Assembly (NCBI GenBank): GCA_009838035.1
Contig: VXSK01000003.1
Span: 21,661-85,660, forward strand
Reading direction: 5' to 3'
DNA: 64,000 nucleotides
Source of the DNA: Gammaproteobacteria bacterium
Lineage (GTDB): Bacteria; Pseudomonadota; Gammaproteobacteria; Steroidobacterales; Foliamicaceae
The position numbers were made by a program, and so were the translations under genes. Positions 43,031 through 55,017 of this stretch are shown here, piece after piece (positions within the stretch are counted from its first letter, which is position 1; each line of letters starts with the position of its first letter). The notes below the pieces were generated by a model, which worked only from the letters and a program-made list of their open reading frames with translations, was not told the DNA's origin and made no database searches.

Positions 43031-44794
43031 ATGATGGCCGATACGCCCGATTCCGTCGCCAACGTCCGCTACGAGCCGAACGACAAGCTGCCGAAGCCGC
43101 TCGCCTTCGGGCTGGGCCTGCAGTTCGCGGTACTCTGTATTGCCGGCATCGTCCTGACCCCGGCGATCGTCATCCGGGCCGCCGGCGGCGCCGAGTCCTA
43201 CCTCTCCTGGGCGGTCTTCGCCGCGGTTGCCATCAGCGGCGTCACGACCATCCTGCAGGCCGTCCGGGTCGGGCGCTTCGGATCGGGCTACGTGCTGGTC
43301 ATGGGCACTTCGGCGACCTTCATCGCGGTCTGCATCGCCGCCATATCCAAGGGCGGACCGGCCATGCTGGGCACGCTGGTCATCATCGCCTCCCTGTTCC
43401 AATTCCTGCTTTCCGGGCGGCTTTCGTTGCTCCGCCGGGTGCTGACCCCGACCGTATCGGGCACCGTGATCATGCTGATCGCGGTGACCGTGATGCCGGT
43501 CGCCTTCGACATGATGAAGGAAATCCCCGAGGGCGCGCCGTCCTTCTCCACCCCGCTCACCGTTGTCGTGACCCTCGTGATCATCGTGGCCATAGCCCTC
43601 AGGGGAAACGCCGTGCTGCGCTTGTGGGCGCCGTTGATCGGCGTCGTGGCGGGATCGGTCCTCGCGGGCTTCTACGGCCTCTACAACACGCAACTGGTTG
43701 CGGAAGCCGGCTGGATCGGGCTTCCATCAGGGAACTGGCCGGGACTCGATCTCGAATTCGGCCCGGTCTTCTGGAGCCTGCTGCCGGCCTTCATCTTCGC
43801 CACTCTGGTGGGCGCCATCGAGACCATCGGCGACGGGCTCGCGATTCAGCGCGTGTCGTGGCGCAAACCGCGCGCGCCGGATTTCCGGGCGGTCCAGGGC
43901 GCCGTGGCGGCGGACGGCGTCGGCAACCTGCTGTCGGGACTCGCCGGCACGGTCCCCAACACCACCTACTCGACCAGCGTTTCGGTGACCGAACTGACCG
44001 GCGTAGGGGCGCGCAGGGTGGGAATCGCCGTGGGAGCGATTTTCCTGGCGGTCGCATTCCTGCCCAAGGCGCTTGCCATGATCCTGGCCATACCCGGACC
44101 GGTGGTGGCGGCCTACGTCATCGTGCTCATGGCGATGCTCTTCATGGTCGGGATCAAGCTCGTGATCCAGGACGGCATGAACGCCCGCAATGGCATGATC
44201 TGCGGCGTGTCCTTCTGGATCGGCACCGGCTTCCAGGCCGGCGTCATATTCCCGGAGTTCTTCTCGGAGTTTGCCGGCGGGATGATGGAAAACGGCATGA
44301 CGGCCGGCGGACTCACGGCGGTGCTCATGACCCTGTTCCTCGAACTCACGGCGCCGCGCCGCCGACGGCTTGAGGCGGAGTTCGCGGTGTCCGCCCTGCC
44401 CCGGATCCAGGAATTCCTGGAGTCGTTCGCAAAGCGCAGCGGCTGGTCGGACGCGATGGCCGGCCGGCTTCAGGCCGCCAGCGAGGAAACTCTCCTGACC
44501 CTGCTCGACCACCAGGATGACGATAGCCGGTCAAAACGGCGTCTGTTGCTGGTAGCGCACAAGGAAGGCGACGGCGCGGTACTGGAACTCATCGCGGCGC
44601 CCGGCGAAGGCAATGTGGAGGACCGGATGGCCCTGCTGGTGGAACAGAGCTCCAGCCAGGCGCCGGAGCATGAAGTCTCGCTGCGCTTGCTGCGCGGCCT
44701 GGCCTCGTCCGTCCATCACCAGCAATACCACGACACGGACATCGTTACCGTGCGCGTGGATGCGCCAAGAATTGCAGCGGGAGCAGCCGGATGA
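43031..44794 (+). CDS. NCS2-family xanthine/uracil permease fused to a degenerate RsbW-like ATPase domain
   Basis: 587 residues against ~430-490 for plain NCS2 proteins. Residues ~20-440 form the transporter (GGAESYLSWAVFAAVAISGV; the QxxE-G segment reads ATLVGAIETIGDGLAIQRVS; GTVPNTTYSTSVSVTELTG), which imports purines or pyrimidines with protons. From ~455 a soluble domain follows: PRIQEFLESFAKRSGWSD, then LQAASEETLLTLLDHQDDD and VHHQQYHDTDIVTVRVD. This order fits an anti-sigma-type HATPase fold, but the ATP-binding Asn and the Asp of the G box are missing. ATGA overlap couples it to the adaptor gene. Confidence 0.82.
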   Translation: MMADTPDSVANVRYEPNDKLPKPLAFGLGLQFAVLCIAGIVLTPAIVIRAAGGAESYLSWAVFAAVAISGVTTILQAVRVGRFGSGYVLVMGTSATFIAVCIAAISKGGPAMLGTLVIIASLFQFLLSGRLSLLRRVLTPTVSGTVIMLIAVTVMPVAFDMMKEIPEGAPSFSTPLTVVVTLVIIVAIALRGNAVLRLWAPLIGVVAGSVLAGFYGLYNTQLVAEAGWIGLPSGNWPGLDLEFGPVFWSLLPAFIFATLVGAIETIGDGLAIQRVSWRKPRAPDFRAVQGAVAADGVGNLLSGLAGTVPNTTYSTSVSVTELTGVGARRVGIAVGAIFLAVAFLPKALAMILAIPGPVVAAYVIVLMAMLFMVGIKLVIQDGMNARNGMICGVSFWIGTGFQAGVIFPEFFSEFAGGMMENGMTAGGLTAVLMTLFLELTAPRRRRLEAEFAVSALPRIQEFLESFAKRSGWSDAMAGRLQAASEETLLTLLDHQDDDSRSKRRLLLVAHKEGDGAVLELIAAPGEGNVEDRMALLVEQSSSQAPEHEVSLRLLRGLASSVHHQQYHDTDIVTVRVDAPRIAAGAAG

Positions 44795-45975
44795 ACTTCC
44801 TGGCCCTATTGAAGCGCTATTTCGGTCCCGTACTGATCGTGGCGGGAGGCTTCCTGCTGGCAATCGTCATCGTTGCCACGGGTCCCAGGCCGGACCGCCA
44901 GGCGCGGCCACCGGACGCTCCCTCGGTTCTGACCATCCCGGCGCTGAAAAGACCCGCGCAGTTGAGCGTCAAAGCGCACGGAACCGTCGTACCCAAGACC
45001 GAGAGTAACCTGGTCGCCGAAGTGGCAGGTCGGATTGTCGCCGTTTCTCCCTCCATGGTTTCCGGCGGCTTTTTCTCTAGGGGCGACATGCTGCTGGAAA
45101 TCGAGCGGATCGACTACGAAGCCGCCCTGGAGCAGGCACGGGCCGCCCTTGCGTCCGCCGAGAGCGAACTCGCCAACGCCGAACTCACGTTCGGCCGGGC
45201 GGAAGAACTGGCAGCCACCCGGGCGGTCAGCCAGGCCGATCTCGACCAGGCGCTGAACCAGCTCAACGTGTCCCGCGCGGGCCAGCGCCAGGCTTCGGCC
45301 GCACTGGCGCAGGCTGAACGCGACCTGGAACGGACCCGCGTGACCGCGCCGTATGACGGACGGGTGCGGTCCGAGCGTGTGGACACCGGGCAGTTCGTAT
45401 CGCGCGGCGAGTCCATCGCTACCCTCTACTCCATCGATTACGCCGAGGTGCGCCTGCCGATCAAGGACCAGGACCTTGCCTTTCTGCCCTTCTCCCTCGC
45501 GCGTACCGACTCGCCTTCCGCGGTAAAGACCAAGGCGATACTGCGCGCGGAATTTGCCGGTGGCACGCATGCCTGGGAGGCCGACGTGGTCCGGACCGAA
45601 GGCGAACTGGACCCCTTGAGCCGCGTCGTCAACGTGATCGCGCAGGTGGCGGAACCGTATGAACCCGCAGACGGGTCGCCGCCGCTGACGGTCGGGCTGT
45701 TCGTCGAGGCGGACATCATCGGCAACACGATCGAAGACGTCGTAGTGGTGCCAACTTCGGCGCTGCAGACCGGCAACCGAATCTACGTCGTTGACACCGG
45801 CAATCGGCTTTCGTTCCGCGATGCGGAAGTCGTGCGCCTGACCGCCGAGACCGCCTACCTTCGGGTCGATGTAGCGGACGGGGAACAGATTTGCGTAACC
45901 GGCCTGGATGACGCCGTCGAAGGCCAGAGCGTTCGCCCGGCGCCCGCCCCGCCCGCTCCCGCCGCGCCCGGATGA
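44791..45975 (+). CDS. RND efflux periplasmic adaptor subunit (HlyD/MFP family), first copy
   Basis: 394 residues. One N-terminal membrane helix (residues ~10-30), then the lipoyl half KAHGTVVPKTESNLVAEVAGRI, an alpha-helical hairpin with heptads (YEAALEQARAALASAESELANAELTF), second lipoyl half VTAPYDGRVRSERVDTGQFV and a beta-barrel domain. It bridges the inner-membrane RND pump to an outer-membrane channel. Overlaps both neighbours by 4 bases (ATGA), so NCS2, adaptor and RND are made together. Confidence 0.9.
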   Translation: MNFLALLKRYFGPVLIVAGGFLLAIVIVATGPRPDRQARPPDAPSVLTIPALKRPAQLSVKAHGTVVPKTESNLVAEVAGRIVAVSPSMVSGGFFSRGDMLLEIERIDYEAALEQARAALASAESELANAELTFGRAEELAATRAVSQADLDQALNQLNVSRAGQRQASAALAQAERDLERTRVTAPYDGRVRSERVDTGQFVSRGESIATLYSIDYAEVRLPIKDQDLAFLPFSLARTDSPSAVKTKAILRAEFAGGTHAWEADVVRTEGELDPLSRVVNVIAQVAEPYEPADGSPPLTVGLFVEADIIGNTIEDVVVVPTSALQTGNRIYVVDTGNRLSFRDAEVVRLTAETAYLRVDVADGEQICVTGLDDAVEGQSVRPAPAPPAPAAPG

Positions 45976-48900
45976 AGGCGATGATCGCCTGGTTCGCCAC
46001 CAACCGGGTGGCGGCCAACCTCCTGATGGGATTTGCCGTTCTGGCCGGCCTTGCGTCGCTCGGTCAGATTCCGGTCAAACTCTATCCCGACTTCGACCTG
46101 CCGGTCATTACCGTCACCGTTCCGTACCTGGGCGCCGCACCCGAGGAGGTGGAGTCCGGGATCTGCACCCGGATCGAGGAGCGGATCGAGGGCATCAACG
46201 GCATCAAGGAAGTGCGTTCGACCGCGACGGAGGGCCGATGCAATGTCGTGGTGGAACTCTTCCACGACGCCGACCGGTTCCTGGTGCTGGACGATGTCGA
46301 TGCGCAGATCAACGCCATCGACACGTTTCCGCAGGAAGCGGAAAAGCCGATCATTCAACTCGTCACGCCTTCGAGCGTGGTCATGGAGATTGCCGTTACC
46401 GGCCCCGCCGACGAACGCGCGCTCAAGGAAATGGCGCGCCGCGTGCGCGACGACATCCTGAGACTTGACGGCGTCACGCATGCCGAAGTCACCAATGCGC
46501 GGCCGTACGAAATTTCCGTCGAAGTCTCCGAGTTGTCGCTGTCGCGCAACAACCTGACCTTCGACGACGTGGCCAACGCGCTGCGCCAGCGTTCGCTGGA
46601 CCTGCCGGGCGGCACCGTGAAGACTCGCGAAGGCGAAGTGCTGCTGCGTACCAGCGGCCAGGCCTATTGGGGCCGTGAAATAGAGAACCTGCTGGTGACC
46701 ACCCGTAACGACGGTACCCGGGTCCTCGTGAAGGACGTCGCCCGGGTCGTGGACGGCTTCGCAGACACCAGCCAGAGCCTCACGTTCAACGACAGGCCGG
46801 CCGCACTGGTGCAGGTCAGCAGAATGGGTGAGCAGGACATTCGCCTGATCACCGAGACCGTCAAGGACTTTGTCGCCCGGTCCCCTACCCGGTATCCCGA
46901 AGGGGTGCAGGTGCAGGTATGGAAGGACGAATCCAAACTCGTGACCGGCCGCCTGGGGGCCCTGGTGGACAGCGGCGTCCAGGGCCTTCTGCTGGTATTG
47001 CTCCTGCTGGCCCTGTTCTTGCGCCCCCACCTCGCGCTTTGGGTGGCGGCAGGCATTCCCATCGCCTTCCTCGGCGCCCTTTTCCTCATGTATTCGCTCG
47101 GCTTTTCGATCGACTCCATCTCGGTGATCGGCTTCATCCTCGCTCTCGGCATGCTGGTGGACGATGCCGTTGTGGTGGGAGAGAGCACCTATGTCGCGCA
47201 CCGGCGGGGAGCCGGTCAGCTTGCCGGAGCGATTCAGGGAACGCAGCAGGTCATGGTTCCGGTCACGTTCGGCGTTCTGACCACCGTAGCGGCCTTCACG
47301 CCGCTGTTGTTTTCCGTCGGGCGGATCGGGCAGATATTCAGCGTCATCTCCGGCACCGTCATCTGCTGCCTTGCCTTTTCCCTGATCGAATGCCAGATGG
47401 TCCTGCCGGCGCATCTCGGGCACCGCCGGACACGGATGCCGCTGGGCGAGTTCGGGATGACCGTTCTGGCGGCCGTCGTGATCGGCGCGTTTGCGATCAC
47501 GCCCGATCTGCGTACCGCCATCGGCGTCGCCATCGGCGGCGTCTCGCTGGTCTATGCGGCTCACATAACCGGCGGGCTCGGCCGGCTGGGGGCCCGTTTC
47601 GCGCGCGTGCAGGTCATGTTCGAATCGGCGCTCGAGGCGCTTGTCCAGGGTCGTTTCCGCGACCTGGCCCGCGCCGCATACCGGAACCGTGTCCTGACGC
47701 TGGCCATTTCGCTGGCGGCCCTGATCGTCTCGATCAGCATTGTTCTCAGTGGGCACCTGCCGTTCACGTTTTTCACGCCGATACAGGGAGACACGGTCAC
47801 CGCCCGCTTGCGGATGCCCCTGGGGACCAGCGAGGCCACCACGCAGGGGATCATCAAGCGACTTGCGGATTCCGCCCGGGACTTGAGGGAGCAACTGGCC
47901 GAAGAGCAGGGAAAGCCGGTCGTGCTGCACGTGGTCGAAGCCATGGGAGGACACCCGTCCACGGCGCAGCCCGGCAGCGCCATTCCGGCCCCGTCCGGAG
48001 CGCATCTCGGTGAAGTCACGATACAACTGAACCCGAGCGAGGAGCGCGACATCCGGACCGAGGAAGTGGGCAGGATGTGGCGCGAAGCCGCGGGTTCCTT
48101 TGCCGCCTCGGACCAACTCAACTTCATTACGGAGAGGATCGAACGGGATCCGGAAATATGGATCCGGTTCGCGGGCGAGAACATCGGCGACCTGAGACGC
48201 ATCGCCGACGAGTTTCGCGGCGAACTTCTTCAGTACCCGGGCGTGTACGGCATCGCCGATTCCCTGCGCGACGGCAAGGCGGAACTGGAGCTCTCCATCA
48301 CTGCGGCCGGAGAAGCCCTGGGGATAACCCTGGCCGACCTGGGCCGCCAGGTGCGGCAGGCTTTCTACGGCGAAGAGGCCCAGCGAATACAGCGTGGCCG
48401 GGACGACGTCCGCCTGATGGTGCGTTACCCCGATGAGCAAAGGCGCTCGCTCGATTCGCTTTACTCGCTCAGGATCCGGACGCCGGCGGGCGGGGAAGTG
48501 CCGTTCGCAACAGTGGCCGAAGTGAGCGGCGGGCGAGGCCTGGCGGAGATCCAGCGTACCAACGGGTCGCGCAGCGTCGACGTTTCGGCTGAAGTGGATC
48601 CCCGGATCGCTTCCGCGGAAGCCGTCATGGCCGAACTGAACGCCGGGTTCCTGAGCCAGGTGCTGCGCCGCTACGACGGCATTTCCTTCACCGTCGAAAG
48701 CGCCCGCGAGCAGCAGGAAACGGTCGCCACGGTCGGACCGCTGTTTCTCATGGCCCTGTTCGCGATATTCGCGCTGCTGGCCCTGCCCCTGCGTTCCTAT
48801 TCGCAGCCGCTGATCATCATGGCGGTGCTGCCCTTCGCCTTCGTGGGGGCGGTATGGGGACACGTGATTCTGAAACTGTTCGGGCCCGTCGTCGGTCTTT

Positions 48901-50546
48901 CGATGGCCTCGGTTTTCGGGATCGTGGCCGCCTCCGGCGTGGTCGTGAATTCCACGCTGGTCCTGATTCACGGCGTCAACCGCTTCCGGGCCGCGGGCGA
49001 CGGCATGGAGGACGCCCTGCTGAATGCCGCCGTTTCCCGGTTCCGTCCGATTCTGATCACCACGGTTACCACTTTTGCCGGCGTCGCGCCCCTGATGCTG
49101 AGCAACAGCGTTCCGGCTCAGCCGCTCGTGCCGATGGCTGCCTCGCTGGCCTTCGGCGTGGTGTTTTCCTCGGTCGCCGCGCTGTTGTTCGTCCCGGCCC
49201 TGTGGCTGGTCCTGCTGGACATTTCCGGCGGCACCCGGCGCGTTACGGACCGGGTTGTGGCCGGCGTGATCGGCGCGTCGCCGCGGCTTTCCCAATGGAT
49301 GGCGCGCTATCCCTACGTGCAGGAAAGTCTGAGAAAGCAGGAATTTACCGACCTCCAGTTGCCGGAAGACCTCGACCTGGACCCGGAGATGGAGAAGATC
49401 GCACGCCAGGGCCTGGTGCGCGTCTACTACCAGCGCGAGTTCGACATCGGGGAAATGCGCGCGCAGCTCGGCGACGTCGCCGCCAGGGCGCCGAACGTCA
49501 GCGATGCCGTCAACGAGGCCCGAACCTGGGCGGAAGAGCGCACCTTCCAGCTCGGCGCCCACATCGCCGGCGGGACGATGGCGCCCGTGGAAGCCGCCGG
49601 ACCCCTGACCGACATCCTGGAAACCTGCCTTGCGTCGCTTTTGCCGGCGGCCAGGGCCGAATTCTCTTCGCAGCACGGCGAAATTCCCGGCAGCCGCATA
49701 GCGCTGGTGGCGCTGGGCCCCGCGGGCCGGCGCGAGTTCGTGACCGGCGGCCCCCTGGAGCTGCTGTTCATCTGCGACCGTGAAGACCGGGCATCGAGCA
49801 CGGCAACACTCAATCCGACTGCCTGGCACGCACAGTTCGTGCAATTCTTCGCGCGGCTGATTCGTGAATTCTCCGCCGAAGGCATCCTGCTCAAGCCTGT
49901 GCCCCCCTGTGCCCTGGAAAGCGGGGGCCGCGAAACATTTGCCCCTACTCTCGCGGCAGCCCGTCAGCACTTCGACGAAATCGCGGATTCCGCCGATCTG
50001 CGCATGCTGGTCCACGCCCGCGTCATTGAGGCTGAAGGCGACCTCCGCGACCGCTTCGAGTCTTTCCGGCATTCGGTGCTGACACGCTTGCACGACGCCG
50101 GCGCCATCGCCGCCGACATCGCCGCGGTCCGCGAGAGCCTGGCGCAACGGCATGAGGCCGGCGATACCTGGGAGATACGACGCCGTACGGGCGGCCTTGC
50201 CGAACTGGAACTGGCAGCCGAATTCCTGCAACTCGTGCATGCCCGCCATACCCCCAAGGTGGCGTTGCATGGCCTCGTTCCCACCTTCCAAGCCGCAGGC
50301 ACGCTTGGCCTTATCGATGCGCGAGAGGCCTCCGGGCTGGTCGAGTCCGCGACGCTATGGCAGAACCTGGAAGGTTTTTTCCAGATGACCAGCGGCGAAG
50401 CATTCGATCCCGAATCTGCCTCCGAGGATCAGAAAGCCGTGATTGCGGACATGTGCGGCGTCGGCCGTTTTGATGAACTGGGCGATCTGATAGCGGAAAC
50501 CGCCCTCGGAACCGCGCGTATCCTGGATCGGATATTCGCCGGGTAA
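45972..50546 (+). CDS. RND efflux permease with a C-terminal GlnE-like adenylyltransferase domain (fusion)
   Basis: 1524 residues; HAE1/CusA-type RND pumps have ~1030. Residues 1-1085 are a full RND permease with two six-helix halves; the proton-relay aspartates are in LGMLVDDAVVVGES, and VVNSTLVLIHGVNRF lies in the second half. A linker follows, and from ~1130 to the end the sequence matches the C-terminal adenylyltransferase half of GlnE: EARTWAEERTFQLGAHIAGG, VALGPAGRREFVTGGPLELL, HARVIEAEGDLRDRF, WEIRRRTGGLAELELAAEFL (W1400), then FLQLVHAR and IDAREASGLVESATLWQNLE. The metal-binding SDxD of GlnE reads GPLE (Pro1261, Glu1263), so it is probably inactive. The reading frame is continuous, with no internal stop or new ribosome site, so it is one protein. 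The soluble end would be cytoplasmic. Confidence 0.87.
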   Translation: MKAMIAWFATNRVAANLLMGFAVLAGLASLGQIPVKLYPDFDLPVITVTVPYLGAAPEEVESGICTRIEERIEGINGIKEVRSTATEGRCNVVVELFHDADRFLVLDDVDAQINAIDTFPQEAEKPIIQLVTPSSVVMEIAVTGPADERALKEMARRVRDDILRLDGVTHAEVTNARPYEISVEVSELSLSRNNLTFDDVANALRQRSLDLPGGTVKTREGEVLLRTSGQAYWGREIENLLVTTRNDGTRVLVKDVARVVDGFADTSQSLTFNDRPAALVQVSRMGEQDIRLITETVKDFVARSPTRYPEGVQVQVWKDESKLVTGRLGALVDSGVQGLLLVLLLLALFLRPHLALWVAAGIPIAFLGALFLMYSLGFSIDSISVIGFILALGMLVDDAVVVGESTYVAHRRGAGQLAGAIQGTQQVMVPVTFGVLTTVAAFTPLLFSVGRIGQIFSVISGTVICCLAFSLIECQMVLPAHLGHRRTRMPLGEFGMTVLAAVVIGAFAITPDLRTAIGVAIGGVSLVYAAHITGGLGRLGARFARVQVMFESALEALVQGRFRDLARAAYRNRVLTLAISLAALIVSISIVLSGHLPFTFFTPIQGDTVTARLRMPLGTSEATTQGIIKRLADSARDLREQLAEEQGKPVVLHVVEAMGGHPSTAQPGSAIPAPSGAHLGEVTIQLNPSEERDIRTEEVGRMWREAAGSFAASDQLNFITERIERDPEIWIRFAGENIGDLRRIADEFRGELLQYPGVYGIADSLRDGKAELELSITAAGEALGITLADLGRQVRQAFYGEEAQRIQRGRDDVRLMVRYPDEQRRSLDSLYSLRIRTPAGGEVPFATVAEVSGGRGLAEIQRTNGSRSVDVSAEVDPRIASAEAVMAELNAGFLSQVLRRYDGISFTVESAREQQETVATVGPLFLMALFAIFALLALPLRSYSQPLIIMAVLPFAFVGAVWGHVILKLFGPVVGLSMASVFGIVAASGVVVNSTLVLIHGVNRFRAAGDGMEDALLNAAVSRFRPILITTVTTFAGVAPLMLSNSVPAQPLVPMAASLAFGVVFSSVAALLFVPALWLVLLDISGGTRRVTDRVVAGVIGASPRLSQWMARYPYVQESLRKQEFTDLQLPEDLDLDPEMEKIARQGLVRVYYQREFDIGEMRAQLGDVAARAPNVSDAVNEARTWAEERTFQLGAHIAGGTMAPVEAAGPLTDILETCLASLLPAARAEFSSQHGEIPGSRIALVALGPAGRREFVTGGPLELLFICDREDRASSTATLNPTAWHAQFVQFFARLIREFSAEGILLKPVPPCALESGGRETFAPTLAAARQHFDEIADSADLRMLVHARVIEAEGDLRDRFESFRHSVLTRLHDAGAIAADIAAVRESLAQRHEAGDTWEIRRRTGGLAELELAAEFLQLVHARHTPKVALHGLVPTFQAAGTLGLIDAREASGLVESATLWQNLEGFFQMTSGEAFDPESASEDQKAVIADMCGVGRFDELGDLIAETALGTARILDRIFAG

Positions 50547-50643: not shown

Positions 50644-51807
50644 ATGAACGGCAACGGCAAAGATACGGGCGAGCGTCGGCGCTTCGCCGGCATTGCGCAG
50701 ATCGCACTGGTGCTGGCGGTATTCGCCGTAGCCATTTATTTTGCCCGTGCTCCGGAAATGGGCGGTCAGCAGACATCCGTAGTGCGAGCCCAGATGCAGG
50801 ATCCGGAGGTCGCCGTTGCGCATCCGGTCAGGGGCCAACATTCCCTCAGCGTTTCCCTGACCGGCGAAGTGCGGGCCCAGGGCAAGGTCGGCCTGCGTTC
50901 CCAGGTTGCCGGACGTGTGCTTTCCGTCTCCCCGGCATTGCGTGGCGGAGGGACATTTCGCGCCGGACAGACCCTGCTGACGATCGACCCGACCGACTTG
51001 GAGATCGACCTCAAGGTCAAGAAAGCACTCCTGCAGCAGCAGGAGGCGCGCTTGCGCTGGCGGGAATTGCGGGCCGAGGAGAAGCGCGAAGAGTTTCAGA
51101 GCCGGAACCCTGGCCGGCCGGTTCCGCCGCTGGTCAACAACGAAACCGAAATCGCACGCTATCAGGCCCGGGTGGACGCCGCCAGGGCGGCGGTGGAGAA
51201 ATCCGAACTGGACCTGGCGCGAACCCGCTACTCGCTGCCCTTTGACGGTCGGATCGTGGAAACGACCGCGATGCGGGGACAGCTCGTCGGTCCGCTGGAG
51301 CCTTTCGGCCTGGCGTTTTCGAGAGAGTCCCTGGAAGTGGAGGCGCCCATTTCCCTGGATGATCTGGATTACCTGGACCCGGCCGAGGGAAGAGCAGTGC
51401 GGGTTGTTGCGAATGGAGAGCTCTTTCCCGCCCTTGTGGATCGCGTGGCGCCGATCGTCAACCGGCGCAGCCGCCTGGTACGCCTCTACGTAAAGTTCGC
51501 CGATTCGGTCCCGCTGGCAAACATTCCGGCGCCGGGAACCTTCGTCAACCTGTCGATCGAGGGCCCGGCATTCGAGAACTCGCTGTTGCTTCCGAAAGCG
51601 GCGGAGCAGGCCAACGGGACGGTGTGGGTGGTTCGCGGCGGCGCGCTTGAAGCCGTAACGCCCCGATCGCTGGGCCGCACCGAGGCCGGCTGGATTGTTT
51701 CGGACTTCGATACCGGGGATGGCGTGGTGCTGGGGGCCGTCCCTGCCGCGGAACCCGGGGTTTCCGTGACGGTAGTGGATGCATCACGAAACTTCCGGGG
51801 GGAATAA
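50644..51807 (+). CDS. RND efflux periplasmic adaptor subunit, second copy
   Basis: 387 residues. N-terminal membrane helix (IAQIALVLAVFAVAIYFA), lipoyl halves SLTGEVRAQGKVGLRSQVAGRV and RTRYSLPFDGRIVETTAMRGQLV, with a short helical hairpin containing ALLQQQEARLRWRELRAEEK, and a beta-barrel domain. Only weakly similar to the first adaptor by eye, so not a recent duplicate. Followed after 3 bases by its RND permease. Confidence 0.9.
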   Translation: MNGNGKDTGERRRFAGIAQIALVLAVFAVAIYFARAPEMGGQQTSVVRAQMQDPEVAVAHPVRGQHSLSVSLTGEVRAQGKVGLRSQVAGRVLSVSPALRGGGTFRAGQTLLTIDPTDLEIDLKVKKALLQQQEARLRWRELRAEEKREEFQSRNPGRPVPPLVNNETEIARYQARVDAARAAVEKSELDLARTRYSLPFDGRIVETTAMRGQLVGPLEPFGLAFSRESLEVEAPISLDDLDYLDPAEGRAVRVVANGELFPALVDRVAPIVNRRSRLVRLYVKFADSVPLANIPAPGTFVNLSIEGPAFENSLLLPKAAEQANGTVWVVRGGALEAVTPRSLGRTEAGWIVSDFDTGDGVVLGAVPAAEPGVSVTVVDASRNFRGE

Positions 51808-51810
51808 GGC

Positions 51811-54800
51811 GTGAATCAGGCGGCGCACACGCCGGGCACTCCCGGCGCCGAGGGCAATAACCCCTTCCACGACATCATCGCCTTTTTCGCGCGAAATACC
51901 GTAGCGGGCAACCTGCTGATGCTGCTGCTTCTGGGCGGTGGGCTTTTCGCCGCTTCGAATCTCGAAATCGAGGACTATCCGGACCTGGATTCGCGTCAGA
52001 TCTCCATAACGGTCCCGTTCCCTGGCAGTTCGCCCGCCGAAGTCGAGGAAAGCGTCAACCGCCGGCTGGAGGAAAACCTGATCGCCGTCGAAGGGGTGAG
52101 GCGGGTTACGTCCACGGCCACCGAGGGGCTGGGAACCGTCACCGTCCAACTGGAACCGTTTGCGGACCCGGTTACCGTCCTCGACGACGTCATGTCGGCG
52201 GTCGATCGCATCGAAGGATTCCCGCCACTCAACGCCGAGCAACCGGAAATCGTGTTGACCAAGGCGCACCGGATCATCATGACCGTTGCCGTAACCTCGA
52301 CGGCTCTCAGCAGGACGGAACTGCGGGCCGCCGCCGAGCGGGTGCAGGAAGACCTGCTGGCGCTGCCGTCGCTGTCCATGGTTTCCCTGTTCGGGGCGGC
52401 GGACCGGGAAATCTCGATCGTCGTCAGCGAGGAGCAGCTGCGGCGCAACAACCTGACCATTTCCGAGCTGGCGCGGGCGATTCGCGAGTCCTCGCTCAAC
52501 GTGTCCTCGGGAGAGCTGCGTACGGATGCGGGCGGACTGATCCTGCGCACCGACCAGAAACGCATGGTGGGCGAGGACTTCCTGGACGTCGTGCTGATTG
52601 CAAACATCGACGGCACGATCGTGAGGCTGCGGGACGTGGCGACAGTCATCGACGGCTTCGCCGACGTGGACGTGGACGGGGAAGTGGACGGCGTTCCGGC
52701 GATGTTCCTGAACATCCGCGCCGCGGACATTCACGACATGACGCAACTCGCATCCGAAGCGAGGAATCTGATCGAGAACTACGAGCCGCCCGCAGGCGCC
52801 AGCGTATTCGTCTGGGATGACAACACGGCGCTTACCGGGGCGCAGTTCCGTACGGTGATCGGCGCCGGCCTTCTCGGCTTTGCACTGGTATTCCTGTTCC
52901 TTTCACTGGTCTTCGACTTTCGGATCGCCGTCTGGGTAGCCATCGGCGTCCCCACTTCGATGCTGGGCGCGCTGCTGTTCTTCCCGGCCTTCGGGCTGAC
53001 GCTGAACGTGGTCACGCTATTCACGCTGCTGCTCGCGGTCGGCATCGTCGTGGACGATGCGGTGGTTGTGGGCGAGAGCATCGCGACGCAGCGGGAAAAC
53101 GGCCTCCGGGGGACCCGGGCGGCGATTGCGGGGGCGAACGCGGTCGTGGCGCCGGTCACGGTGGGCGTGCTCACGACAATGATCGCCTTCGTTCCGCTCG
53201 CATTCACGTTTGGCCCGACCGGGCAAATGCTCAACACGATGCCGTTGATCATCGTGCTCGTGCTCTCCGTTTCACTGATCGAGGCGTTCCTGATTCTGCC
53301 TGCGCACCTGTCGCACAGCGCTCCATGGAGCAGGCCGCCACTGACCGGCATACAGGTCAGCGTGCGAAAACGCCTGAACAACCTGCGCGACCGATGGGTC
53401 GTGGGCGCGATCGCTTCGGCCGTGCGCCGCCCCTACCTCACCATAGTCACCAGCGTCGTGCTGGTCATTGGAGTGGCGCTTGTGGCCATGGCGGGAACGC
53501 AGTGGATGTTCCTGCGCACGGCGGACGCGAATCGCATTCAGGCGGACATTGTGTTTCCCACCGGAACGCCATACGAGACCACGTGGGCCGCCGCGGAGCA
53601 ATTGATCGAGGCCGCCCATGCGACCAACAGGCAGGCCGGCGACGATCCGGTCACCACGGTTGCAGCGGTAGTCGGACATCACTTCGGCGCCTACCGGATC
53701 CAGGGTTCGAAGAAATCGACCTACGGGACCCACCTGGCTTCCGTGACCATGCACATCAGGGACGAATCGCAGCGGTCGCTGAGGCCGGCCGATCTCGAGA
53801 CGATGTGGCGCCTCAATGCCGGACAGGTCCGGGGGGTGGAGAGCATCCGCTACAACACGGCGCTGATCCCCAACGACGCCGAGATCCAGTATGCGCTCGT
53901 GCATCCGGATGAAGACACCGTTGTAGCGGCGACGAACGATCTGAGGGGCGCGTTCGGCAATATACCCGCACTCTTCCAGGTCGAGGATTCGCTGGGCGAG
54001 AGCAAGCGGCAGTTCGACCTGGAATTGACCGAGGCCGGCATCGCCGCCGGCCTGTCGCCCGCCGGACTGGCCATGCAGCTCAGGAACCGTTTCTACGGCG
54101 CCGAGGTGCAGCGCATTCAGCGCGGCCGCGAAGAAATCAGGGTCATGGCGCGCTATCCGCAGGAGCGCCGCCGCAGCGTCCGTGAATTGCTGGACGAACG
54201 CATATTGCGGCCCGGCGGCGCGCAGATTCCCCTGTCCGCCGTCGCCCGGATCATTGAGACCCGCGATTTTTCGACCCTCACGAGGATCGACGGCGTGCGC
54301 GCGGCGACGGTAAGCGGCCGCGTCGATCGCCGATTGTCCTCGCCCAACGCCGTCATGTCGGAAATCGAGGACGACGTGGCTCCCCGTTTGTCAGGCAGGT
54401 ATGAGGGCCTGAGGGTCGTCCGTCAGGGGCGGGGTGAAGGGCAATCGGAGGTCAACAGGATTCTGCGCTTCACGGTCCCGCTGGCGCTGCTGTTCATGTA
54501 CTTTCTTATGGCGGTGCAGCTGCGCAGCTACTGGCAGCCCGCGCTGGTGCTGGCCGGTCTGCCGTTCGCCATTGCCGGCGGCCTGCTAGCTCACGTGGTG
54601 CTCGGCTACGATCTGTCGATAACGTCCGTGTTCGGCATGGTTGCGGTGGGCGGCGTGGTCGTGAACGACACGTTGGTACTCATGGACCGGTATAACAGGA
54701 TTCGGGCGGAATCCGCAGCCACGCCGGCCATCGCCGCGGTGAGCGCCGCCGCCCGGCAACGCTTCCGCGCGATTTTCCTGACCACGATCACGACCATAGT

Positions 54801-55017
54801 CGGCTTGATGCCCGTGATTTACGGAAAGAGCGAAGTGACGCAAGGGCTGCTGCCCATGGTGGTCAGCATGGCGGGAGGGCTGATCGCAGCCGGCGCCGCC
54901 CTGCTCTTCTTCGTGCCGGCCCTGGTTCTGATCGTGGACGGAACCCGCGAGGCGATCCTGGGACCCGGCCAGAGCGCATCTTCCGGAGGCGAGGTCGGAC
55001 CAGGCCTGACAGCCTGA
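51811..55017 (+). CDS. RND efflux permease, HAE1/CusA-like, second copy
   Basis: 1068 residues, standard length; GTG start. First half TM4 LLAVGIVVDDAVVVGESIA holds the proton-relay aspartates; VEESVNRRLEENLIAVEGVRR, RIQRGREEIRVMARYPQERR and VVVNDTLVLMDRYNRIRAE are typical RND blocks. It ends with a short hydrophilic tail and has no GlnE domain. No outer-membrane channel gene (TolC type) is in the cluster, so it would have to be supplied from elsewhere. Substrate unknown. Confidence 0.92.
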   Translation: MNQAAHTPGTPGAEGNNPFHDIIAFFARNTVAGNLLMLLLLGGGLFAASNLEIEDYPDLDSRQISITVPFPGSSPAEVEESVNRRLEENLIAVEGVRRVTSTATEGLGTVTVQLEPFADPVTVLDDVMSAVDRIEGFPPLNAEQPEIVLTKAHRIIMTVAVTSTALSRTELRAAAERVQEDLLALPSLSMVSLFGAADREISIVVSEEQLRRNNLTISELARAIRESSLNVSSGELRTDAGGLILRTDQKRMVGEDFLDVVLIANIDGTIVRLRDVATVIDGFADVDVDGEVDGVPAMFLNIRAADIHDMTQLASEARNLIENYEPPAGASVFVWDDNTALTGAQFRTVIGAGLLGFALVFLFLSLVFDFRIAVWVAIGVPTSMLGALLFFPAFGLTLNVVTLFTLLLAVGIVVDDAVVVGESIATQRENGLRGTRAAIAGANAVVAPVTVGVLTTMIAFVPLAFTFGPTGQMLNTMPLIIVLVLSVSLIEAFLILPAHLSHSAPWSRPPLTGIQVSVRKRLNNLRDRWVVGAIASAVRRPYLTIVTSVVLVIGVALVAMAGTQWMFLRTADANRIQADIVFPTGTPYETTWAAAEQLIEAAHATNRQAGDDPVTTVAAVVGHHFGAYRIQGSKKSTYGTHLASVTMHIRDESQRSLRPADLETMWRLNAGQVRGVESIRYNTALIPNDAEIQYALVHPDEDTVVAATNDLRGAFGNIPALFQVEDSLGESKRQFDLELTEAGIAAGLSPAGLAMQLRNRFYGAEVQRIQRGREEIRVMARYPQERRRSVRELLDERILRPGGAQIPLSAVARIIETRDFSTLTRIDGVRAATVSGRVDRRLSSPNAVMSEIEDDVAPRLSGRYEGLRVVRQGRGEGQSEVNRILRFTVPLALLFMYFLMAVQLRSYWQPALVLAGLPFAIAGGLLAHVVLGYDLSITSVFGMVAVGGVVVNDTLVLMDRYNRIRAESAATPAIAAVSAAARQRFRAIFLTTITTIVGLMPVIYGKSEVTQGLLPMVVSMAGGLIAAGAALLFFVPALVLIVDGTREAILGPGQSASSGGEVGPGLTA

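Follow-up and report, generated by a model that had tools for sequence, protein, structure and literature searches.

A gammaproteobacterial RND permease fused to a degenerate GlnE half, with a candidate link between its tail and an srp-type peptide pathway

The window analyzed here is a whole stretch of 64,000 nucleotides of gammaproteobacterial DNA (contig VXSK01000003.1; its genome is called the window genome, or G000), and all coordinates are positions in this window. One open reading frame (ORF) of the window, at 45972–50546, is a true fusion of an RND permease with a domain of the GlnE adenylyltransferase family. We propose, with a probability of about 45%, that this GlnE-like tail is a catalytically dead docking module on an RND exporter, and that the likeliest partner is one of the components of the srp pathway or something made by it; this is a pathway for ribosomally synthesized and post-translationally modified peptides (RiPPs). 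A partner in this pathway is considered the likeliest because the sole other tailed membrane protein that was found, an AlkB-like oxygenase, works there, and because the srp AlkB oxygenase was present in 10 of the 10 genomes with an RND-tail gene that were checked. Both parts of the fusion belong to known families; the way in which they are combined and the family of the tail are new variants. The literature searched contained no description of an RND–GlnE fusion, in agreement with the initial annotation, nor of an AlkB–GlnE fusion or a GlnE-domain pseudoenzyme.

The initial annotation, made from the sequence without database searches, had read residues 1–1085 as an RND permease and the remainder as the C-terminal, adenylylating half of GlnE, and profile searches bore out both assignments. 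In the permease part, the Pfam model ACR_tran covered both repeats in two stretches (E = 1.3e-148), the PDB profile matches were MexB, AcrB, and MdtB, and the aspartate pair of the fourth transmembrane helix, which is expected to serve the proton relay, is present (LALGMLVDDAVVVGES). In the tail, PF03710 (GlnE) matched residues 1156–1363 over its gathering score, and PF08335 reached 20.5 bits against a cut-off of 21 in the whole protein and 22.9 bits, over the cut-off, when the tail was scanned alone. The NCBIfam model of alphaproteobacterial GlnE, PRK14108, matched residues 1162–1521 (E = 5e-40) with its positions 621–981 of 986, i.e., its C-terminal half; the equivalog cut-off of 724 bits was missed (142.8 bits). 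A profile built from 60 tail sequences found the adenylyltransferase domain AT-C of Escherichia coli GlnE (3K7D) with E = 4.7e-30 and the domain AT-N (1V4A) with E = 2.4e-12.

The tail is also predicted to carry the GlnE fold. The AlphaFold model of residues 1085–1524 (predicted local distance difference test [pLDDT], 89.4; predicted template modeling score, 0.89) aligned over 384–396 residues with 1V4A (Z = 35.8) and 3K7D (Z = 35.4), and no different fold was placed there; further down the fold comparison were Legionella DrrA and MNT/HEPN proteins, all of which have a nucleotidyltransferase fold. As in these two GlnE structures, a helical core, a nucleotidyltransferase sheet, and a C-terminal bundle follow in the same order over about 385 residues. 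The tail differs from GlnE in that it is a single half of the C-terminal type, without the two-half, two-activity layout, in that the metal-binding aspartates are gone, in an insert of ~26 residues, and in its fusion to a membrane transporter. Similarly, the protein resembles RND pumps of the ACR_tran family (MexB, AcrB, and MdtB) in its permease and in the neighboring gene for a membrane fusion protein, whereas it adds a cytoplasmic pseudo-adenylyltransferase tail of about 440 residues.

The fusion was present in frame in five of the nine genomes of the genus, with an identity of 85–90% in the tail and 94–97% in the RND body, and no untailed orthologue of the fused RND gene was found in the remaining genus genomes. 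Further RND-tail genes occurred in metagenome-assembled genomes (MAGs) of more distant gammaproteobacterial symbionts: two in G098, two in G099, three in G101, and at least three in G100, so that a single genome can hold up to three or four copies. The initial annotation had named a frameshift or an assembly join of two genes, RND and glnE, as one outcome that would be fatal to its reading. We found no evidence for such an artefact or for a decaying read-through between the two genes, and we rejected this explanation and regard it as extremely improbable, because the same in-frame fusion recurs in the five genus genomes and in several distant ones, because purifying selection acts across the tail, and because the real glnE lies elsewhere. 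This intact glnE is on another contig of the window genome (C6), shares an identity of just about 18% with the tail, and belongs to a separate clade, so the derivation of the tail from the genome's own glnE was likewise rejected.

The reading of GPLE at residues 1260–1263 (Pro1261 and Glu1263) proved exact. With GPLE in place of SDLD, and LKPVPP at the third-aspartate site VDxRLRP, the window protein lacks the catalytic aspartates of GlnE. The position of the first aspartate held P, A, G, or S in 12 of 12 RND tails in the alignment, and the third aspartate was missing in all 60 aligned tails (12 RND and 48 AlkB). RND tails have thus lost the catalytic metal site, which agrees with the earlier suggestion that the transfer of AMP is gone. 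Acidic residues stood at both SDxD positions in 15 of the 48 AlkB tails, and these 15 tails may retain some metal binding. Such residues, together with a nucleotidyltransferase sheet that is still predicted with high confidence, would favor a regulator in which the tail binds ATP or another nucleotide without transfer and gates the pump. We think this quite unlikely, since the first position is non-acidic in every RND tail and the third aspartate is lost in every aligned tail.

To describe the origin of the tail, we use the name GlnE2 for an insert-bearing, full-length alphaproteobacterial GlnE (L160/L179, L178, L195, L196, and L199). The initial annotation had let the tail follow GlnE along its whole length; this stood for the fold of the C-terminal half and did not stand for a segment of ~26 residues (about 1132–1158), which is foreign to ordinary GlnE. 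GlnE2 and all aligned tails share this insert, with the consensus LPxxxGLEPExAExARRGLVRLFYxREFG, and canonical GlnE is without it. In quick maximum-likelihood trees with support from the Shimodaira–Hasegawa-like approximate likelihood ratio test (SH-aLRT), the RND tails (support 100) and the AlkB tails (support 100) were sisters, and their joint clade (SH-aLRT 96–99) nested among the C-terminal halves of GlnE2. Judged from their sequences, both tails are shown to share a common origin within the rare alphaproteobacterial GlnE2 lineage. Unlike the tails, GlnE2 is soluble and has two halves, and its decay is graded: the catalytic motifs are intact in G107 and G123, APLD replaces SDLD in G802, and RLRPSG is lost in G878 (RPRGTG) and G801 (QTRDTG). 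Along the series from GlnE2 through decaying GlnE2 to the tail, it would be possible to follow how an enzyme turned into a binding domain while the constraint moved from an active site to a surface.

Several observations concern the full-length proteins themselves. L195, a long frame of 1363 aa, was at one point a candidate for an odd new fusion; this was rejected, as L195 is a GlnE2. Around the GlnE2 genes L178 (G123) and L179 (G107), the neighbors in common resemble, by eye, genes for a circularly permuted ATP-grasp protein, an alpha-E protein, and leucine degradation, and G123 also carries a canonical GlnE (L180). In the alphaproteobacteria G108 and G105, which bear AlkB tails, the GlnE proteins L154, L155, L162, and L163 have an altered sheet in the C-terminal half (GSDLDGIFFYD and FDLLLRP) and form a long branch outside GlnE2.

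We also compared the selective constraint on the parts of the fused protein. The pooled ratio of nonsynonymous to synonymous substitutions (dN/dS), which comes from ten non-independent pairs among five genus genomes and from short segments, and is more reliable in its ranking than in its exact values, was 0.088 in the pump body, 0.052 in the tail core (residues 1103–1167), 0.131 in the helical hairpin, 0.282 in the nucleotidyltransferase sheet, and 0.354 in the C-terminal bundle. The mean pairwise identity of the core was 0.75 among RND tails and 0.70 among AlkB tails, compared with 0.39 in GlnE, whereas that of the sheet was highest in GlnE (0.58) and lower in the two tail groups (0.52 and 0.44). 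Between RND and AlkB tails, the identity was 0.49 in the core and 0.27–0.30 elsewhere. Within the fused protein, the constraint is thus strongest in the core, which holds the insert. It has shifted away from the active site and onto this helical core: the core and the sheet contrast in both dN/dS and identity, and the AlkB tail of the genus has kept its core while losing the C-terminal bundle. The dN/dS of the sheet, 3–5 times that of the core, also speaks against the gating of the pump by a nucleotide.

These values bear on a further explanation, in which the tail is a passive structural element without a specific partner and serves to stabilize the pump trimer or to cluster it. RND pumps function as trimers, and the drift of the C-terminal bundle (dN/dS 0.35) would suit such a role. 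However, the dN/dS of the core is below that of the pump itself, and the same core is retained by the AlkB oxygenase, an unrelated protein. We therefore regard a purely structural tail as rather improbable and a docking surface as the better account of the core.

This oxygenase is encoded on contig C13 of the window genome as a protein of 680 aa, in which an AlkB-like membrane part is followed by a related tail that is 33% identical to that of the window protein; the Pfam matches of this 680-aa protein were PF00487 and PF03710. The profile of the AlkB part found alkane monooxygenase 8F6T (E = 6.6e-69), the histidine motifs HxxxH, HxxxHH, NYxQHYG, and RHxDHH were invariant in 32 sequences, and the AlkB-tail structure model had a pLDDT of 81.9. 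The AlkB-tail protein (L117) and the window protein thus have the same tail family at the C-terminus of an inner-membrane protein, and they differ in that the membrane part of the former is of the AlkB-type alkane monooxygenase family and its gene lies within a RiPP cluster. The neighbors of the AlkB-tail gene in the window genome include an NHLP precursor, an NHLM exporter, and a YcaO gene whose product belongs to the SagD family and has a leader-binding domain; across the survey described below, an srp-type YcaO gene of the SagD family adjoined the AlkB-tail gene at 57 of the 70 public AlkB loci, three non-public loci having been left out of the totals. In 26 loci from several phyla, the NHLP precursor was 71–92% identical to that of the window genome.

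Published srp clusters are described as RiPP proteusin clusters of sponge origin (Nguyen et al., 2021, as cited in PMC10858898 and PMC9426513), with a precursor SrpE that has the core LCCCW, a YcaO enzyme SrpC that cyclizes it, and SrpI, which brominates it (PMC10858898; PMC10286304). We call the C13 cluster srp-type because its precursor ends in GLCCCW and the core of SrpE is LCCCW; it resembles the srp clusters in this NHLP precursor and in the YcaO cyclodehydratase. A pairing of AlkB with a proteusin was not found in the literature, although the founding srp paper was outside that search and may contain an earlier notice of the AlkB gene.

Additional genes were noted at the AlkB-tail loci. 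Beside the AlkB-tail gene on C13, an ORF of 463 aa (L042:13892–15280, minus strand) has an N-terminal domain resembling the NHLP leader (47.6 bits, just under the cut-off) and a match resembling the C-terminal part of squalene-hopene cyclase, and it has relatives in about 34 of 80 loci. Another ORF on C13, of 371 aa (L042:8309–9421, minus strand), had no Pfam or NCBIfam match and is kept beside YcaO in 42 of 80 loci. On G799:C27, a stop splits the AlkB-tail gene close to where the nucleotidyltransferase sheet begins (L193 and L198), which may reflect a frameshift or a pseudogene. In a Nitrospira MAG, one contig (G103:C28) holds two differing AlkB-tail genes (L130 and L138), with a distance of about 22 kb between them.

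In a scan of the genomes of 84,980 species, 141 relatives were detected, and 80 of the 141 were examined. These 80 loci comprised 10 RND-tail loci and 70 AlkB-tail loci, and no fusion partner besides RND, AlkB, and GlnE or GlnE2 was seen among the matches inspected in these loci and in the genomes searched; L143, L145, L146, and L148 are RND-tail genes as well. By record name, the relatives come from Alpha-, Gamma-, and Deltaproteobacteria, Nitrospira, and Acidobacteria; the AlkB-tail proteins fall in the Alpha- and Gammaproteobacteria, the Myxococcota, the Nitrospirota, and the Acidobacteriota. Many of the titles or bin names indicate sponges (Spongia, lac_sponge, and Porisulfidus), the bin names RHO, COS, IRC, CAR, and APA match hosts that are listed in PMC8163846, and the remaining relatives are presumably also sponge-derived. 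In class-wise samples, tails or GlnE2 occurred in 2 of 369 genomes of Gammaproteobacteria and in 10 of 385 genomes of Alphaproteobacteria, the class of G107.

The 10 RND-tail genomes in which the AlkB gene was present (G000, G001, G002, G006, G007, and G097–G101) included nine with an srp-type YcaO. G008 has neither an RND tail nor an AlkB tail. In an order-level sample of 97 genomes, all five RND-tail genomes were among the nine with an AlkB tail (Fisher p = 2e-6, which overstates the evidence because the genomes are closely related). Several results weigh against an srp-pathway partner. No RiPP genes, such as those for an NHLP precursor or YcaO, were found beside the RND-tail gene at the RND loci inspected; unlike the AlkB-tail gene, the RND-tail gene of the window sits outside the srp cluster, on a different contig, and the cluster has an NHLM exporter of its own. 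G003–G005, members of the genus, have an AlkB tail without an RND tail. In G099, the contig end cuts the AlkB gene so that a tail would lie outside the sequence, and no YcaO was found in this genome. Outside the core, RND and AlkB tails share an identity of only about 30%, and the two groups are sisters, not nested, so their partners may differ. Finally, shared ancestry and a shared sponge habitat could confound the co-occurrence.

In the mechanism that we favor, the window protein would be a proton-driven RND exporter with a cytoplasmic C-terminal pseudo-adenylyltransferase. One GlnE half would have been taken from GlnE2, losing the nucleotidyl-transfer site and retaining the N-terminal helical core. 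The constraint on this core suggests a surface on which a cytosolic partner docks, and the co-occurrence points to the srp precursor leader, the YcaO enzyme, or the modified peptide as candidates. At the pump, the tail would deliver either the cargo or a complex from which it is released, much as it would deliver the peptide or the complex at the AlkB oxygenase, and the pump would probably export an srp-related compound. A broader proposal, which we hold only tentatively, is that in sponge symbionts the dead GlnE half is a shared cytoplasmic docking module uniting the AlkB oxygenase and the RND exporter family in an srp-type RiPP pathway, so that a biosynthetic complex bound to the membrane would pass the products or intermediates of the pathway straight to the pump. 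RND pumps normally draw their substrates from the periplasm or the membrane, and a cytoplasmic docking module on such a pump would be an unusual pairing of an exporter with a pathway. Moreover, srp-type clusters, known for their YcaO enzyme and brominase, are widely accompanied by a tailed membrane oxygenase in sponge symbionts of several phyla, and the tail offers concrete candidate binding partners.

The initial annotation had instead suggested a pump that follows nitrogen status, in which the tail keeps the contacts of GlnE with glutamine, PII, or glutamine synthetase. The homology of the tail to the adenylylating half of GlnE, the intact GlnE of the window genome, and the PII genes that were detected in all but one of the eight tested RND-tail genomes (seven of eight) are consistent with this idea. 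However, the other tailed protein is part of a peptide-maturation cluster, the strongest constraint falls in a segment that canonical GlnE lacks, and beyond its ancestry no feature of the tail points to nitrogen. Canonical GlnE was not detected (E ≤ 1e-20) in the RND-tail genomes G099 and G101 or the AlkB-tail genome G104, and PII was not found in G104 or G098, although these MAGs may be incomplete. Coupling to nitrogen status thus lacks support; it is weakened, not refuted, and we consider it unlikely.

The features of the fused gene and its surroundings are summarized in Table 1.

Table 1. Features of the fused gene and neighboring genes in the window.
Feature	Coordinates	Strand	Evidence
Xanthine/uracil-type permease	43031..44794	+	Pfam PF00860, E = 1.6e-49
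Membrane fusion protein (HlyD_3) paired with the fused RND pump	44791..45975	+	PF13437, E = 3.7e-12
Fused ORF	45972..50546	+	ATG start, 1524 aa, 0 internal stops
RND permease body, residues 1–1085	45972..49226	+	ACR_tran, E = 1.3e-148; dN/dS 0.088
Tail, residues 1085–1524, degenerate C-terminal half of GlnE	49224..50543	+	Profiles, AlphaFold model, alignment
Tail core, residues 1103–1167, putative docking surface with GlnE2-type insert	49278..49472	+	dN/dS 0.052, identity
Insert of ~26 residues, about residues 1132–1158	49365..49445	+	Alignment; in GlnE2 and all aligned tails
Helical hairpin, residues 1184–1236	49521..49679	+	dN/dS 0.131; helices in AlphaFold model
Degenerate nucleotidyltransferase sheet, residues 1237–1345	49680..50006	+	3/3 catalytic Asp positions lost; dN/dS 0.282
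GPLE (1260–1263) replacing SDLD of GlnE	49749..49760	+	Alignment columns
C-terminal helical bundle (GlnD_UR_UTase-like), residues 1346–1524	50007..50543	+	PF08335; dN/dS 0.354
Second membrane fusion protein	50644..51807	+	PF13437, E = 4.3e-9
Second RND permease, without GlnE tail	51811..55017	+	ACR_tran, E = 2.5e-141, 22–1042 of 1068 aa

A scan of promoters and terminators gave a result no better than chance. Read from the sequence, two ATGA overlaps connect three genes: the upstream xanthine/uracil-type permease gene, with its stop at 44794, runs into the start of the first membrane fusion protein gene, which in turn runs into the start of the fused RND gene. This permease gene adjoins an RND-tail gene solely inside the genus, and the C-terminus of its product has a weak match to HATPase_c_2, a histidine-kinase-like ATPase (PF13581, 17.3 bits, under the cut-off).

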